The translations under genes and the position numbers were made by a program. The notes beneath the pieces are model-generated. The model had not been told where the DNA came from and did no database searches. It was given only the letters and a program-made list of their open reading frames with translations. Below, one piece after another: positions 1 through 6,117 of a stretch of DNA of 6,117 nucleotides. The DNA comes from Agathobacter sp. GTDB lineage: Bacteria > Bacillota_A > Clostridia > Lachnospirales > Lachnospiraceae. Every line of letters begins with the position of its first letter. Positions within the stretch are counted from its first letter, which is position 1. Location of the stretch: contig JAGBEZ010000134.1 in the NCBI GenBank assembly GCA_017936725.1, forward strand, positions 1 through 6,117, written 5' to 3'.

Positions 1-864
1 AAATTTTATATCGGAGATGTAAGAGATATCCAGTCTGTACGTAATGCCATGCATGGCGTAGACTATATCTTCCATGCAGCAGCTTTAAAACAGGTACCTT
101 CCTGTGAATTTTTCCCAATTGAAGCAGTAAAAACAAATGTACTTGGAACAGAAAACGTTTTAAATGCTGCAATTGAAGCTGGGGTAAAAAATATCGTATG
201 TCTTTCTACGGACAAAGCGGCATACCCAGTAAACGCAATGGGGACGAGCAAGGCTATGATGGAGAAAGTAATCGTAGCGAAGTCCAGAACGGTATCACCG
301 GAAAAGACAGAGGTTTGCTGTACCCGTTATGGAAATGTAATGTGCAGCCGTGGTTCTGTAATTCCATTGTGGATTGACCAGCTTCGAGCTGGAAACCCAA
401 TTACGATTACCGATGGAAGCATGACAAGATTTATTATGTCATTAGATGAAGCCGTAGACCTTGTATTATTTGCATTTGAACATGGTGAAAACGGAGATAT
501 TCTTGTACAGAAAGCTCCTGCATGTACGATTCAGACACAGGCAGAGGCTGTATGTGAACTATTCGGTGGAAACAAAGAAAATATTAAAGTCATCGGTATT
601 CGTCATGGTGAAAAAATGTACGAAACGCTTCTTACCAACGAAGAATGTGCAAATGCCATCGATATGGGAAATTTCTACCGTGTGCCATGTGATAAACGTG
701 GTCTTAACTATGACAAATACTTTAATACAGGTGATACAGAGAGAAATCCGCTTACGGAATTTAACTCAAACAATACCAATTTATTGACCGTAGAAGAAAC
801 AAAAGAGAAAATTGCTTCTCTTGCTTATATCCAGGAAGAGCTTGCGAAGGGGGCAAACGCATGA
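1..864 (+). CDS. capE: UDP-GlcNAc 4,6-dehydratase/5-epimerase CapE (FnlA/WbjB type), 5'-truncated
   Basis: First enzyme of UDP-L-FucNAc synthesis. In the family it is a cytoplasmic NADP-dependent SDR enzyme that dehydrates UDP-GlcNAc at C4/C6 and inverts C5. The frame is open from base 1, so the ATG at 49 is internal. 287 residues are visible; relatives have about 340, so roughly 55 N-terminal residues, including the glycine-rich nucleotide loop, lie to the left. Counting from the window start: HAAALKQVPSCE (25-36), NVLGTENV (46-53), STDK (69-72), then M80 and K84 in NAMGTSK. Met replaces the usual SDR Tyr, which is the recognised M-x3-K hallmark of CapE as opposed to FlaA1. RYGNV (109-113), RHGEKMYE (201-208) and a C-terminal NTGDTERNPL segment also fit. 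The stop overlaps the capF start (ATGA). Family assignment is secure; the substrate is inferred from the CapF/CapG neighbours. Confidence 0.95.
   Translation, partial: KFYIGDVRDIQSVRNAMHGVDYIFHAAALKQVPSCEFFPIEAVKTNVLGTENVLNAAIEAGVKNIVCLSTDKAAYPVNAMGTSKAMMEKVIVAKSRTVSPEKTEVCCTRYGNVMCSRGSVIPLWIDQLRAGNPITITDGSMTRFIMSLDEAVDLVLFAFEHGENGDILVQKAPACTIQTQAEAVCELFGGNKENIKVIGIRHGEKMYETLLTNEECANAIDMGNFYRVPCDKRGLNYDKYFNTGDTERNPLTEFNSNNTNLLTVEETKEKIASLAYIQEELAKGANA
847..853 (+). promoter_or_regulatory. Ribosome binding site of capF
   Basis: AAGGGGG lies 7 bases before the ATG at 861, inside the last codons of capE. It supports the ATG that overlaps the capE stop as the capF start, and implies translational coupling. 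Confidence 0.7.
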
Positions 865-2024
865 ATATACTCGTAACGGGAGCAAAAGGATTTGTAGGAA
901 AGAATTTTTGTGTAAGTTTAAATAATATTCGTGATGGAAAAGACAGAACACGCCCAAATCTCGTAGTAGATGAAATCTATGAGTATGATCTCGATACAGA
1001 TGCGACTCTTTTGGATACGTATTGTGAAAAAGCGGACTTTGTATTTCACTTTGCAGGGGTTAATCGTCCAAAATCAAACGAAGAATTTATGCAGGGGAAC
1101 TTTGGATTTACCAGTACCCTTTTAGATACCCTGAAAAAACATGGAAATACCTGTCCAATTATGATTTCGTCTTCCATTCAGGCTACCTGTATCGGTAGAT
1201 ATGATAGCGAATATGGAAGAAGCAAACGAGCAGGCGAAGAGCTCATGTTTTCTTATGCAAAAGAAACGGGAGCCAAAGTACTCGTTTATCGTTTTCCAAA
1301 TGTTTTTGGAAAATGGTGCAGACCAAACTATAACTCTGCAGTTGCTACCTTCTGTCACAATATCGCAAATGATTTGCCAATTACAGTAAATGACCCAGCG
1401 GTAGAACTCGAATTGGTCTATATTGATGACCTCGTAGCAGAAATGCTCGATGCACTGGAAGGAAAAGAGCATTATGCAGATATCTACTGTCAGGTACCTA
1501 CGACGCACAAGGTGACACTCGGTGAAATCGTAGCGTGTCTGGAAAGATTTAAAAACCAGCCACAGACACTGGTTATGCCTGAAATAGCAGAAAATTCATT
1601 TGAGAAAAAACTTTACTCCACATATCTTTCTTATTTACCAAAGGAAAGAACCATCTTCCCTTTAAAAATGAATGAGGATGCAAGAGGAAGTTTCACAGAA
1701 TTACTAAAAACCGAAAAATGTGGACAATTCAGTGTAAATATATCAAAACCGGGGATAACTAAAGGACAACATTGGCATCATAGTAAATGGGAGTTCTTTA
1801 TCGTAGTTAGTGGACATGGACTGATTCAGATGCGAAAGATCGGTACAGATGAAGTGTGGAACTTCGAAGTAACTGGAGAAAATATCCAGGCGATACATAT
1901 GTTACCAGGATATACACATAATATTATCAACTTAAGTGAAACAGAAAACTTAGTAACCTTGATGTGGGCAAATGAATCCTTTGACCCAAATCATCCAGAT
2001 ACCTATTTTGAGGAGGTAGAGTAG
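861..2024 (+). CDS. capF: Bifunctional UDP-sugar 3-epimerase/4-reductase CapF (FnlB/WbjC type)
   Basis: Second enzyme of UDP-L-FucNAc synthesis. In the family the C-terminal cupin epimerises C3 of the CapE product and the N-terminal SDR domain reduces the C4 ketone with NADPH, giving UDP-6-deoxy-L-talosamine (N-acetylated). The SDR domain occupies about residues 1-240: nucleotide loop TGAKGFVG (6-13), HFAGVNRP (63-70), a serine run at 103-105, and catalytic Y118 and K122 in YGRSK. The cupin starts near 265. HWHH (304-307), E311 and H353 in GYTHN are the likely metal ligands by position. At 387 residues it is slightly longer than S. aureus CapF (about 370). The start overlaps capE by 4 bases and the stop overlaps the capG start by 1 base. 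Both domains are intact and no key residue appears lost. Confidence 0.95.
   Translation: MNILVTGAKGFVGKNFCVSLNNIRDGKDRTRPNLVVDEIYEYDLDTDATLLDTYCEKADFVFHFAGVNRPKSNEEFMQGNFGFTSTLLDTLKKHGNTCPIMISSSIQATCIGRYDSEYGRSKRAGEELMFSYAKETGAKVLVYRFPNVFGKWCRPNYNSAVATFCHNIANDLPITVNDPAVELELVYIDDLVAEMLDALEGKEHYADIYCQVPTTHKVTLGEIVACLERFKNQPQTLVMPEIAENSFEKKLYSTYLSYLPKERTIFPLKMNEDARGSFTELLKTEKCGQFSVNISKPGITKGQHWHHSKWEFFIVVSGHGLIQMRKIGTDEVWNFEVTGENIQAIHMLPGYTHNIINLSETENLVTLMWANESFDPNHPDTYFEEVE
2011..2016 (+). promoter_or_regulatory. Ribosome binding site deciding the GTG start of capG
   Basis: A perfect AGGAGG lies 7 bases before GTG at 2024, within the last codons of capF. It selects the GTG that shares its first G with the capF stop (TAGTG). 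Confidence 0.85.
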
Positions 2025-3193
2025 TGGACTTCAAAGATGTAACGTTTCAGAATAATGGAAAATTAAAACTTTTGATTATCGTAGGTACCAGACCAGAGAT
2101 TATCCGTCTTTCAGCGGTTATCACGAAATGCCGTCAGTATTTTGATACCATTCTCGCTCATACAGGACAAAACTACGATTATAATTTAAATGGTGTTTTT
2201 TTCCGTGACCTCAAACTCGCAGAACCAGAGGTATATTTAAATGCAGTAGGGGCAGATCTTGGCGAAACCATGGGGAATATCATCGCAAGTTCTTATCAGC
2301 TTATGGCAGAGATTCAGCCAGATGCCGTTCTTGTACTCGGAGACACGAACTCTTGTCTCTCTGTCATTGGAGCAAAGCGTCTGCATATCCCAATCTTCCA
2401 CATGGAAGCAGGAAATCGATGCAAGGACGAATGTCTCCCAGAAGAAACGAACCGCCGTATCGTAGATATCATCTCGGATGTTAACCTCGCATATAGCGAA
2501 CATGCCAGAAAGTATCTCCATGAATGCGGACTTCCAAAGGAACGTGTCTATGTGACAGGTTCTCCTATGGCAGAAGTATTGCGTAACAATCTCGCAGAAA
2601 TCGAAGCCAGCGATATCCATAGTCGTCTTGGTCTCGAAAAAGGAAACTATATTCTCCTTTCTGCACATAGAGAAGAAAATATCGATACAGAAGAAAACTT
2701 TATCAGTCTCTTTACCGCAATCAATAAGATGGCAGAGACCTATGATATGCCAATTCTGTATTCTTGTCATCCAAGAAGCAGAAAACGCTTAGAATCCAGC
2801 GGATTCGAGTTGGACAAACGTGTGATTCAGCACGAGCCACTCGGTTTTCATGACTACAACTGTCTGCAGATGAATGCGTTCGCAGTTGTATCCGATAGTG
2901 GAACATTGCCAGAAGAAAGCAGTTTCTTTACTAGTATTGGAAAAGCGTTTCCAGCCGTATGCATCCGTACATCCACGGAACGCCCAGAGGCACTTGACAA
3001 GGCTTGCTTTATCCTCGCCGGAATCGACGAAAACAGTTTGATTCAGGCAGTTGAAACCGCAGTTGCTATGAATGTAAATGGGGACTATGGTATTCCAGTA
3101 CCAGACTATATCGAAGAAAACGTATCCACGAAGGTGGTAAAACTCATACAAAGCTATACCGGAGTGGTAAATAAGATGGTTTGGAGAAAATAA
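2024..3193 (+). CDS. capG: UDP-N-acetyl-L-fucosamine-forming C2-epimerase CapG (FnlC/WbjD type)
   Basis: Third enzyme of the pathway: a cytoplasmic non-hydrolysing UDP-GlcNAc 2-epimerase homologue (WecB fold). It inverts C2 of the CapF product to give UDP-L-FucNAc. Motifs in order: GTRPEIIRLS (21-30), HTGQNYD (46-52), GDTNS (106-110), HMEAGNR (126-132), PEETNRR (139-145), SAHREEN (213-219), CHPRSRKRL (248-256), SDSGTLPEE (290-298) and RTSTERPEA (315-323). D107, E128, E140/E141 and H215 correspond to the acid and histidine residues essential in E. coli WecB. At 389 residues it is full length, with a short N-terminal extension before the first strand. The GTG start has a perfect ribosome site. 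Sequence alone cannot separate this from a plain UDP-GlcNAc/UDP-ManNAc epimerase; placement directly after capE-capF decides it. Confidence 0.94.
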   Translation: MDFKDVTFQNNGKLKLLIIVGTRPEIIRLSAVITKCRQYFDTILAHTGQNYDYNLNGVFFRDLKLAEPEVYLNAVGADLGETMGNIIASSYQLMAEIQPDAVLVLGDTNSCLSVIGAKRLHIPIFHMEAGNRCKDECLPEETNRRIVDIISDVNLAYSEHARKYLHECGLPKERVYVTGSPMAEVLRNNLAEIEASDIHSRLGLEKGNYILLSAHREENIDTEENFISLFTAINKMAETYDMPILYSCHPRSRKRLESSGFELDKRVIQHEPLGFHDYNCLQMNAFAVVSDSGTLPEESSFFTSIGKAFPAVCIRTSTERPEALDKACFILAGIDENSLIQAVETAVAMNVNGDYGIPVPDYIEENVSTKVVKLIQSYTGVVNKMVWRK

Positions 3194-3202
3194 TATCGCA
3201 GT

Positions 3203-3670
3203 ATGAATTTAAATAAACGAAGTATTATTTTTTTGATGATAACGATTGCATGGATATGCGTCATCTTTTCCTTTTCTATGCAGAATAGTGAAAAATCCAG
3301 TCAGTTGAGTGGAGGAATCGTAGCAACCATAGTGGAATGGATTTGTCCAGAAGGGTTTGAACATACCGACTTGCTGGAGACGATAATCCGAAAAGGTGCT
3401 CATTTTACAGAGTTCTTTATCTTAGGGATGTTGTTGTCACAGACGGTGAAGGAAGCGATGTCAAAAAGGCGAGTGCTTCTTCCGTGGTTGGCAGGTACAC
3501 TTGTAGCCTGCTGCGATGAGACGATACAGCTTTTTTCAGATGGACGAGCAGGAGCAATCGTAGATGTGATGCTAGATAGTAGTGGCGTACTGTGCGGATG
3601 TGCGCTATTATATCTACTTTTAAAAATAAAGAAAAATGCAAGAAACGAAAAAATCAGGGAAGTCATATAA
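3203..3670 (+). CDS. VanZ-family integral membrane protein
   Basis: Small membrane protein of the VanZ-like family (155 residues). Likely membrane segments are about 7-26, 67-82, 91-108 and 118-141. Family signatures are FSFSMQNSEKSS (22-33), RKGAHFTEFFILG (63-75) and DETIQLFSDGRAG (105-117) followed by DVMLDSSG (121-128). The biochemical role of most members is unknown. The founding member gives low-level teicoplanin resistance, but widespread chromosomal copies should not be read as resistance genes. It starts 9 bases after the capG stop in the same frame, so no earlier start is possible. The only nearby purine-rich site, TTGGAG, is about 16 bases from the ATG, so initiation may depend on ribosomes finishing capG. 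Its last codons form the left arm of the terminator and its stop lies in the loop. A role in surface glycan or envelope is inferred from position only. Confidence 0.9.
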   Translation: MNLNKRSIIFLMITIAWICVIFSFSMQNSEKSSQLSGGIVATIVEWICPEGFEHTDLLETIIRKGAHFTEFFILGMLLSQTVKEAMSKRRVLLPWLAGTLVACCDETIQLFSDGRAGAIVDVMLDSSGVLCGCALLYLLLKIKKNARNEKIREVI

Positions 3671-3687
3671 AATGACCTCCCTGATTT
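3651..3687. terminator. Bidirectional Rho-independent terminator between convergent operons
   Basis: Inverted repeat with arms 3651-3666 and 3672-3687: 16 positions with one A-C mismatch (A3661 opposite C3677) and a 5-base loop (ATAAA). On the + strand it is followed by AATTTTG, a modest tail. On the - strand the stem leads into an uninterrupted run of six T's and then CGTTTCT, a stronger tail for the pepT/RyR unit, whose stop is 12 bases upstream. The left arm is also coding sequence of the VanZ gene, and the VanZ stop TAA (3668-3670) lies in the loop. Confidence 0.9.
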
Positions 3688-3699
3688 AATTTTGAGACG

Positions 3700-5103
3700 T
3701 TATAGTTGTATATTATGTAAGATACGAATATTCTCGCGGTCTTTCTCTTTTTCTCCGTTCGTAAGATTCTCATATGGAATCAAGTCTATGTGGATACGGA
3801 GTTTTTTGTCTTTATTCTTTCCATTTTCAGGAATACCATGTTTCCAATTGTTTAGATAATGATAGCGGCACCAGCGGATATGCTCCAATTCGGAGTAAAT
3901 CTCTAGTACATCATCTGGTAATGCATCGGTGGTAGAATATCCATCAAAATCCAGCATTTGCAGGCGCATTTCATGATAATCTGCAGAGCTGATATTAGAG
4001 TAGCGAGTAAAGGTATCCAGGAGAGCCCATTGCTTTTCCGATTCTTCTGGAGTCTCCGAAACGCCAGAGTACAAGTGTGCATAACGCAGGTTGATGCGTT
4101 TTGCACGGTGGAATAAGACGTCGTTTAAAATGTAATCAAGATTCTGCGATTCGGTTTTCCAATTAAAACAAATCAGTCGTTCTTTTTCTGCTAAGAGGTT
4201 TGCACTGGTAGGGTTGGCAGTAAATACGTGAATCTGCGGTTTGCGAATGGTAAAGAGCAGATTGCGAAGCAGAGAGGTTTGATTGTTTTGCTCAAGGACG
4301 ATGACCATATGCGCTCGTTCTAATAATTCTTTGCTTTCGTACCAAGGCTTGTCGTAAAACAGGATAGGGTCTGAAACAGAGCTAAGCTCGGTATGTGTTG
4401 CCTGAAAATGTGTACCATCCCCAAAGATATGATAGGTGATTTTTTGCTGTGCAGAGAAAATATTGTTCTGCAGACCAAAGAGTAGCAGTTCCTCTCCTAA
4501 TTTATCAAAACTAATAAACACAATATCAAGGACATGTCCATTCTGTACCGAAACGGGATATAGAAAGTTCTGCTTCCAGAACAAACGAGTCGAGGTCTCT
4601 TCCGGGCAGAATAAACGAAGATTGCTTTCGCAGACCGATTCTGCAGGGAGGGAGTGACTTTTTAAGTAAACGATACTCTTTTCCAACTTTTTCTTGTTTG
4701 AAGCATAAAACGCAAAGTTTGTGTCTTCGTCGTCTAATAAAATGTATTTGGAAGCACGGATAAATCGGTCTTGTCCATTGATTCCATATTTTCCAATTTC
4801 GCGTAATAGTTTTTCTTTTGTTTCATCCGAGCCGTATACGACGATGCTTTTTCCTGTGAGATATAGGATAAAGTGAACGAGTCGGTCTCTTAAAGTTGCG
4901 ATTGCAAGCAAAATACCACTAGCGGTCATAAGTGGAGCAAGCCAGCGGGCGAGTTCGATACATAGATTGGCTGGATGGTAAGTGTAATTTAAAAGATAGA
5001 GATTGATAGAGTAAAAAAATGCATCCAGCAGAGGTTCTCCTTCTAATAAAAATCCCCATACGCCTAGGAAAAAAGGTATGAAAAAGATAATTAGTTTTAT
5101 CAT
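3700..5103 (-). CDS. Membrane protein with channel-like N-terminus, TrkA-N-like region and C-terminal RyR domain
   Basis: 467 residues, function unknown. Residues 4-20 and 54-71 are hydrophobic helices flanking a pore-loop-like stretch (25-42) that lacks the TVGYG filter. LARWLAPLMTA (51-61) resembles the second helix of bacterial two-helix channel/TrkA-N proteins. Arginines just after it (72, 74) predict a cytoplasmic C-terminus. A first Rossmann-like start, SIVVYGSD (86-93), and a second, VFISFDKLGEEL (195-206), have lost most glycines of GxGxxG. A SNISSAD segment (369-375) precedes the RyR domain at about 404-462: EHIRWCRYHYLNNWKHG (407-423), then IDLIPYENL (439-447) and KEKDREN (452-458). 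RyR repeats occur in ryanodine receptors and in scattered bacterial proteins. The gene follows pepT by 17 bases with a good ribosome site, so it is probably co-transcribed with it. The RyR call is confident; the TrkA-N relation is moderately so; ligand and activity cannot be assigned. Confidence 0.8.
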   Translation of the reverse strand: MIKLIIFFIPFFLGVWGFLLEGEPLLDAFFYSINLYLLNYTYHPANLCIELARWLAPLMTASGILLAIATLRDRLVHFILYLTGKSIVVYGSDETKEKLLREIGKYGINGQDRFIRASKYILLDDEDTNFAFYASNKKKLEKSIVYLKSHSLPAESVCESNLRLFCPEETSTRLFWKQNFLYPVSVQNGHVLDIVFISFDKLGEELLLFGLQNNIFSAQQKITYHIFGDGTHFQATHTELSSVSDPILFYDKPWYESKELLERAHMVIVLEQNNQTSLLRNLLFTIRKPQIHVFTANPTSANLLAEKERLICFNWKTESQNLDYILNDVLFHRAKRINLRYAHLYSGVSETPEESEKQWALLDTFTRYSNISSADYHEMRLQMLDFDGYSTTDALPDDVLEIYSELEHIRWCRYHYLNNWKHGIPENGKNKDKKLRIHIDLIPYENLTNGEKEKDRENIRILHNIQL

Positions 5104-5111
5104 ATAATATG

Positions 5112-5117
5112 TCCTCT
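5112..5117 (-). promoter_or_regulatory. Ribosome binding site of the RyR-domain membrane protein
   Basis: On the minus strand AGAGGA lies 8 bases before the ATG at 5103, in the 17-base gap after the pepT stop. It supports this start and leaves no room for a separate promoter in the gap. Confidence 0.75.
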
Positions 5118-5120
5118 CGA

Positions 5121-6117
5121 TTATTTATCTATTGGATTCGAAATAATTTCTTTTAATATTTTTACAACACGTTCCATCGCATCCACACTGACATGTTCGT
5201 AAGGACCATGGAAGGCATATCCGCCAGTGCCAAGGTTTGGACAAGGCAGCCCCATAAAGGAGAGACGTGCGCCATCGGTACCACCACGAACTGGTGAAGA
5301 TACAGGTTCTAAACCAACGGTAAAAATGGCATCTTTTGCCAAATCTACGACATACATATGGTCTTTTATGATAGAAATCATATTTTCATAGGAATGTGTA
5401 ATGGTAAGGTTCACTGTATTCGCTCCATATTTTTGATTCATTGTGATTTCCAAGGTACGTAAGAGATTCAATCTGGATTCAAATATATTTTCGTCATGGT
5501 CGCGAACAATGTAGGAAAGTTTGGAAGAAACGACATCACCTGACATATCTGTCAAATGGAAAAAGCCTGCGCGGTGTTCTGTATGTGCAGGGGTCTCTCT
5601 TTTTGGGAGAGACATCGCGATTTCAGCCGCGATAAGGGCTGCATTTACCATGACGTCTTTGGCTTCGCCTGGGTGAACACTTACCCCATTAATCTGAAAT
5701 TCTGCACTAGCGGCATTGAAGTTTTCGTAAGCAATATCTGCTTCATAGCCTCCATCTACGGTGTAGGCATAGTCTGCCTTGAAATAGTCGAGGTCAAATC
5801 CATTTGGTCCCATGCCGACTTCCTCGTCTGGAGTAAAGCAAATCCAGATATCGCCATGAGGGATGTCGCTGGCTTTGATTTCTTCTACCGCTGTCATGAT
5901 TTCTGCGATTCCAGCTTTATCATCTGCGCCAAGTAATGTGGTGCCATCGGTAGTAATCAGGCGGTGTCCTTTTAGAGTTTTTAGATGTGGGAAGTCGCAA
6001 ACCTTAATATAACTGTCGCTTCCGCTTAAAAAGATGTCTTTTCCATCATAATTTTCAATAATCTGCGGCTTTACATTTTCACCAGAAAAGTCTGGAGCCG
6101 TGTCCATATGTGCAATC
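5121..6117 (-). CDS. pepT: Peptidase T (tripeptide aminopeptidase), 5'-truncated
   Basis: Cytoplasmic M20 dizinc peptidase that removes the N-terminal residue from tripeptides. The reading frame runs off the right edge. The ATG at 6107 is internal, because the codons before it read I-A-H, giving the zinc motif H-M-D. About 78 N-terminal residues are missing; E. coli PepT has 408. Numbering from that internal Met: D2 (HxD), D62 in GADDKAG, the catalytic glutamate pair E95-E96 in TPDEEVG, D118 in TVDGG and H300 in GGYAFHG match the metal and catalytic residues of E. coli PepT (D80, D140, E173/E174, D196, H379) with an almost constant offset. GGTDGARLSFMGLPCPN (275-291) is also characteristic. 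No active-site residue in the visible part is missing. It is the upstream gene of a two-gene unit with the RyR-domain protein. Its promoter lies outside the window. Confidence 0.96.
   Translation of the reverse strand, partial: IAHMDTAPDFSGENVKPQIIENYDGKDIFLSGSDSYIKVCDFPHLKTLKGHRLITTDGTTLLGADDKAGIAEIMTAVEEIKASDIPHGDIWICFTPDEEVGMGPNGFDLDYFKADYAYTVDGGYEADIAYENFNAASAEFQINGVSVHPGEAKDVMVNAALIAAEIAMSLPKRETPAHTEHRAGFFHLTDMSGDVVSSKLSYIVRDHDENIFESRLNLLRTLEITMNQKYGANTVNLTITHSYENMISIIKDHMYVVDLAKDAIFTVGLEPVSSPVRGGTDGARLSFMGLPCPNLGTGGYAFHGPYEHVSVDAMERVVKILKEIISNPIDK

Follow-up and report, generated by a model that had tools for sequence, protein, structure and literature searches.

The 6,117-nucleotide stretch of Agathobacter sp. 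DNA studied here (contig JAGBEZ010000134.1, positions 1 to 6,117; hereafter the window) carries on its reverse strand a gene (3700..5103) for a 467-residue, channel-like protein whose sole Pfam match is PF02026, the ryanodine receptor (RyR) repeat. RyR genes of this family adjoin TIR genes far above chance, a linkage that is new here. Together with this linkage to TIR and DUF4062 genes, our computations yielded the architecture of the protein, its predicted folds, the conservation of its pocket and the K+ channel ancestry of its pore. With slightly better than even confidence, we propose that the protein is a channel-like, receptor-gated membrane effector, which would be gated by a TIR-made ADP-ribose signal.

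The linkage was followed in the flanks of 40 genomic places and in nine named loci, and counted over 54 RyR sites from 47 genomes. TIR_2 matches above the cut-off, the only ones counted, lie within 2, 5 and 10 kb of 13, 18 and 20 of these sites, where uniform placement with rounded genome sizes predicts 0.18, 0.38 and 0.71. The count excludes weak sites in six genomes (G097, G098, G101, G163, G242 and G301) and second RyR matches in the same operon or open reading frame (ORF) (G044:1143921, G237:54633, G223:43058, G246:23681, G067:178048, G037:328494, G174:9710 and G059:11346); both G089 sites were retained and counted against one TIR gene. Among the excluded sites, at least two have such a neighbour: the one in G242 lies 49 bp from a TIR match and the one in G101 lies 234 bp from a match to DUF4062, described as a TIR-like NADase family (PMC13174449). 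By coordinates, DUF4062 contributes two further genomes within 5 kb, G001 and G059, and a third, G235, at a distance of 5.3 kb. As a control, none of 103 TrkA_N sites lies within 6 kb of a TIR match and one lies within 11 kb, among the matches listed, taken at about one site per ORF and by start-to-start distance. At the level of whole genomes, TIR_2 or DUF4062 is present in 41 of the 46 RyR-positive and 111 of the 253 RyR-negative genomes of the family sample, as tallied by hand, in a Fisher comparison that ignores genome kinship. The neighbours confirmed by Pfam comprise TIR-MORN (L002, L007), TIR-TPR (L052), TIR-LRR (L061), TIR-AAA-TPR (L054), TIR-Sel1 (L062) and TIR (L090) proteins, and a ThsB-like TIR with WD40 (L006). 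Multi-domain DUF4062 proteins neighbour RyR in L001, L086 and L088, as does a DUF4062 protein in L094. In the 16 partner sequences, a glutamate was seen by eye where we presume the TIR catalytic glutamate motif to lie. Cluster c16 (L001_4 with a TIR-LRR protein) was not counted as TIR; G001 has no TIR_2 match.

Proximity of this kind could also arise if there were no signalling pair, with TIR and DUF4062 proteins depleting NAD+ alone and RyR an independent accessory gene sharing defence islands with them. DUF4062 proteins can indeed work alone as NADases (PMC13174449), and locus L053 also carries an AlwI-like restriction endonuclease gene (12598-14703, reverse strand; PF09491, 115 bits) two genes upstream of its RyR channel gene. 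However, RyR sites do not cluster with two other defence families: by coordinates, all lie more than 10 kb from the 83 HsdS and 30 Abi_2 places, and the closest approach is about 12 kb, in G233. Furthermore, neighbouring genes on the same strand are separated by only 15-30 bp in L002, L007, L052, L054 and L061 and overlap by 4 bp in L096 and L098, which argues against independent accessory genes; we regard this as the least probable of the explanations weighed here. In L095 (10170-11972, forward) and L094 (7486-9273, reverse), a membrane protein of 595-600 residues that starts with RVGVTGHRPGG adjoins RyR; for the L095 protein, Pfam yields only a sub-threshold DUF2207_C.

The linkage recurs in a second sample. 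A family profile (A1), built from 33 sequences, matches 8 of 398 phylum-sample genomes, two of which (G002 and G215) had been counted previously. All six new genomes have TIR or DUF4062 adjacent to RyR or one to two ORFs off: TIR is adjacent in G430, shares a 4-bp overlap with RyR in G596 and G680, and stands one gene away on both sides of RyR in G403, while DUF4062 is next to RyR in G516 (by Pfam) and about 0.8 kb downstream in G635, where it was identified by eye only. The window architecture is not common to all six, with hydropathy finding N-terminal transmembrane (TM) segments in the RyR proteins of G430, G516 and G403 and none in those of G680, G635 and G596. The earlier note on this DNA had proposed surveying the gene neighbourhoods of homologues, and the partner class that the survey brought out is TIR and TIR-like DUF4062 genes. 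Its remark that the window itself holds no such partner was right, there being no TIR gene among the six window ORFs scanned. It had left open whether the protein is a sensor, a channel-derived receptor or a defence effector; the TIR and DUF4062 neighbours favour a nucleotide-gated effector without proving one.

The proposed sensor occupies the C terminus, where PF02026 matches residues 398-460 (3724..3912; this and all further parts of the gene on the reverse strand) at 27.8 bits, narrowly above the cut-off of 27.4. The last 146 residues (322-467; 3703..4140) are predicted to fold as an entire two-lobed RyR Repeat12 clamp. Judged from sequence, the PF02026 assignment is marginal for the single protein and firm for the family, because a search scoring 7997 candidates gave 697 homologues at E ≤ 1e-3, 117 of the 120 of them that were listed carry PF02026, and A1 matches solved ryanodine receptors at 1.4e-10 and about 1e-7. 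Within the clamp, a predicted ligand pocket (3739..3882) would be lined by H408 (3880-3882), W411 (3871-3873), H438 (3790-3792) and D455 (3739-3741). This pocket was mapped by transitive alignment through the phage protein Xenomorph gp87 and a Bacteroides chimera. Residues 64-115 of gp87 align to 72-123 of the solved chain 35tm_A, a protein of 139 residues labelled 'Ryanodine receptor Ryr domain-containing protein', placing gp87 H68, W71, H93 and D110 at 76, 79, 101 and 118 according to match ranges rather than a residue alignment. Since these land on the four named positions of the phage protein RyDEP plus one, 35tm_A is taken as RyDEP. The RyDEP ligand residues H, W, H and D would then correspond to H408, W411, H438 and D455, with the spacings of 3 and 17 retained. 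Among the 120 listed homologues, to which all residue counts refer, H408, W411 and H438 are present in 120 each and D455 in 118. Phage RyR proteins are described as binding or cleaving 2'/3' cyclic ADP-ribose (cADPR) by means of these four residues (PMC13232231).

The same residues bear on another role for the clamp, namely that of a signal remover or timer, which would limit the response by binding or hydrolysing the TIR product, with the membrane part serving as an anchor or weak leak. Both catalytic positions of RyDEP, H75 and D117, correspond to the retained H408 and D455. Their retention does not show catalysis, however, because other tested homologues bound ligand without cleaving it despite high conservation (PMC13232231). 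Moreover, a pure remover would need neither a pore helix nor two RCK domains, and we consider this role unlikely.

In front of the clamp, the predicted model shows the layout of a two-TM, RCK-gated K+ channel of the MthK/GsuK type. TM helix 1 (residues about 2-22; 5038..5100) is modelled as helices 2-7 and 9-20, followed by a pore-helix-like helix and loop (residues 25-46; 4966..5031; model helix 25-36) and a long helix (47-83; 4855..4965) containing TM helix 2; GsuK matches over residues 1-329. Hydropathy detects the segment 2-20 only, TM helix 2 falling under the threshold used. A first RCK-like Rossmann domain (about 85-188; 4540..4851) is indicated by the model secondary structure and by matches to CASTOR, KtrA and TrkA rings, and a second (about 190-320; 4144..4536) by the model, structure matches and the alignment. 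The glycine motif of the second domain is SFDKLG in the window and mostly GFGxLG-like among relatives. We rejected a dehydrogenase identity, which the main whole-chain Foldseek matches suggested, as a general Rossmann match; VIA-align placed RCK rings first. The earlier note's reading of the motifs as a C-terminal RyR repeat thus proves correct and above chance by Pfam, family profile and predicted fold, and the two TM helices and the TrkA-N/RCK-like cytosolic region it described are borne out by the predicted fold and profile search.

At the K+ filter position, the window protein has LLNYTYHP in place of a TVGYG-type selectivity filter. The pore loop of the listed homologues is mostly NYx[D/E]xP, with Y36 and N46 kept in all 120, position 40 a tyrosine in 113 and a phenylalanine in 7, and position 42 acidic in 103. 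Residue 42 of the window protein (4978-4980) is itself a tyrosine, as in its 99% relative P0001, and is an aspartate in P0002. Because 14 of 43 aligned relatives show [TS]VGYGD in the very columns of the window LLNYTY, the alignment indicates that the front end descends from a K+ channel pore. The same evidence shows a degenerate filter, and K+ channel would be the wrong name for this protein.

This ancestry could instead point to a regulated ion channel with an ordinary physiological role, which would respond to an adenine- or NAD-derived metabolite and have TIR linkage in only some lineages. Of the 14 relatives with a K+ filter, 13 have no TIR within 5 kb, and solved Repeat12 binds adenine nucleotides (PMC12627627). 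Yet the degenerate-filter clades have TIR or DUF4062 nearby in 13 of 29 rows, and the RyR family is patchy, being present in 46 of the 299 genomes of the family sample. We think an ordinary channel improbable, marginally more so than a signal remover.

A quick tree of 43 proteins with A1 scores over 70 bits, 34 of which are also in A2, places L001_2 as sister to the window protein (SH-aLRT 100); 52 bp separate the end of the L001_2 gene from a convergent DUF4062 gene. Different TIR proteins are paired across the tree, and 14 rows are marked by a NADase neighbour (13 by TIR_2 and one, L001, by DUF4062). The H-W-H-D pocket is kept in all 14 marked rows and in 18 of the 29 unmarked rows; the 11 other rows include L068, an incomplete sequence, and L065, with HVQE. 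Nine rows without D455 form one subclade, which has the K+ filter, no marked member and no TIR within 5 kb. Four of the five RyR-positive genomes without TIR_2 or DUF4062 (G019, G066, G139 and G233) carry members of this subclade. Overall, 14 distant relatives (L069, L070 and L071-L082) combine a canonical [TS]VGYGD with RCK and RyR, nine of them without D455.

The family also takes other forms. Tandem RyR-family genes, or RyR genes flanking TIR, are found in L053, L069, L070, L073, L090 and L093, the last in the order RyR (535 residues), TIR (448 residues) and RyR (730 residues). RyR proteins of about 550-580 residues (L053:10871-12532, L088:9557-11260 and L096:9869-11602, all reverse, and L098:8519-10255, forward) have a C-terminal RyR, an N-terminal part without an assignment and seemingly no N-terminal TM helices, and their genes adjoin TIR, DUF4062 or RyR channel genes. 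Small frames of 93-121 residues match the RyR end of A1 (G037:C1:328494, G059:C31:11346, G174:C21:9710 and G101:C366:9194); the G037 frame directly precedes a TIR match (328856), and that of G101 is the site noted above for its distance of 234 bp to DUF4062.

Taken with the linkage, these features lead us to infer a ligand, a mode of gating, a conducted ion, a conductance and a phage defence outcome for the proposed TIR-gated effector. A TIR or DUF4062 protein with TPR, LRR, MORN, WD40 or NTPase parts would sense a stress, most likely phage, and split NAD+. The resulting ADP-ribose-type molecule, either a cADPR isomer or ADP-ribose (ADPR), may then enter the Repeat12 clamp at H408, W411, H438 and D455. 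Ligand binding is described as shutting RyR3 Repeat12 in the manner of a clamshell (PMC12627627); here, clamp closure would pull the double RCK ring and open the K+-channel-derived pore with its degenerate filter, and the resulting ion leak could halt growth or kill the infected cell. The window holds one of the lone RyR copies. With no partner within 6.1 kb, this copy would need a NADase in trans, presumably one encoded elsewhere in its genome.

Several observations weigh against this proposal. TIR_2 is absent within 5 kb of 36 of the 54 RyR sites, and the window copy, 17 bp behind a pepT-like gene, has no TIR gene in 6.1 kb. Two near-relative genomes, G001 and G239, contain DUF4062 only and lack any TIR_2 match; G160 likewise lacks one, and in G239 and G160 the DUF4062 genes lie on other contigs. 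DUF4062 is described as making ADPR and not a cyclic signal (PMC13174449). Across the tree, the neighbour label switches 11 times against a shuffled mean of 12.1, a near-random scatter that can mean either repeated pairing or gene-order noise. No PADLOC 2.0.0 model matches the RyR protein of the window or of L093, and the absence of a canonical selectivity filter leaves conduction unproven.

It is conceivable, though we advance it only tentatively, that these genes serve bacterial immunity, with cADPR isomers made by TIR proteins opening a RyR-domain channel; such a pathway would be the prokaryotic counterpart of the long-discussed animal link from cADPR to the ryanodine receptor, and perhaps its origin. 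In this scenario, a K+-channel lineage with a RyR sensor, as in the VGYGD relatives, would have lost K+ selectivity upon recruitment as a TIR effector. cADPR has been implicated in the control of ryanodine receptors in animals, a question that the RyDEP preprint raises anew for Repeat12 (PMC13232231). If the pathway exists, a bacterial protein of 467 residues would offer a small model for the cADPR-ryanodine receptor question, TIR-based immunity would gain a receptor/effector pair, and it would become understandable why phages possess free RyR domains able to bind signals of this type.

The remaining genes of the window provide context only. The pepT-like gene (5121..6116, reverse; PRK05469/TIGR01882 peptidase T) precedes the RyR gene by 17 bp on the same strand and extends past the window edge, and a VanZ-like gene (3203..3670, forward; PF04892, 3.6e-21) is convergent to the RyR gene. 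We rejected conserved operon membership with pepT or VanZ, as neighbours vary among homologue loci. Positions 1-3193 (forward) hold three consecutive sugar-nucleotide genes, encoding Polysacc_synt_2, a WbcJ-like reductase (NF047837 at 384.8 bits, below its cut-off of 500) and a UDP-GlcNAc 2-epimerase, which we take to be a UDP-N-acetyl-L-fucosamine set. A mobile-element origin of the RyR protein was also rejected, its full length being unmatched in phage and plasmid records at E 1e-5. The RyR part alone gave four weak phage record matches (E 0.03 to 0.8), and in viral contigs a pattern matched 15 stretches, none of them confirmed.

The RyR domain, TIR signalling and the two-TM RCK body are each known. 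In 2015, Burroughs et al. reportedly treated RyR domains of prokaryotes as components of nucleotide-centred conflict systems. In the literature surveyed, which does not include that study or Yirmiya 2025, we found no combination of a RyR clamp, full pocket, degenerate K+ filter and TIR linkage; priority for the combination is uncertain, because either of the two may describe or predict it. A text search found no mention of RyR or ryanodine in PMC13174449, PMC13142454, PMC9503650 or PMC7159879. Likewise, no paper on a bacterial RyR-TIR pair came up among the paper listings surveyed, and PMC13232231 concerns phage proteins; the available portion of that paper names cADPR-activated Thoeris systems and mentions no RyR effector.

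Among known proteins, phage RyDEP and its sponge homologues (PF02026; PMC13232231) share the RyR clamp and the four aligned ligand residues with the window protein, and predicted phage RyR proteins in a viral structure library match it with probability 1.00 (E 2.6e-3 to 0.1). Phage RyR proteins are small, have no channel parts (Xenomorph gp87 has 142 residues) and counter the host (PMC13232231), whereas the window protein is encoded in a bacterial genome and carries its clamp fused to two-TM and RCK parts. The animal ryanodine receptor is a giant Ca2+-release channel with chains of about 5,000 residues, against 467 here, and its sequence match is confined to the PF02026 region and clamp. With CASTOR/DMI1, GsuK, MthK and KtrA/TrkA, the window protein shares the predicted two TM helices, pore helix and two RCK-like domains, and differs in its degenerate filter and additional C-terminal RyR clamp. 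It also differs from the Thoeris effector type (ThsA: SIR2-SLOG, Macro), to which it has no PADLOC 2.0.0 match. The DUF4062 neighbours in L001, L086, L088 and L094 recall the Swarozyc/DUF4062 NADases (PMC13174449). The likeness to Thoeris and other TIR-signal systems lies in the relatives rather than the window, where no TIR gene stands next to the candidate effector: at 18 of the 54 sites a TIR gene lies within 5 kb, and in such relatives it adjoins a candidate effector with a predicted ADPR-signal domain.
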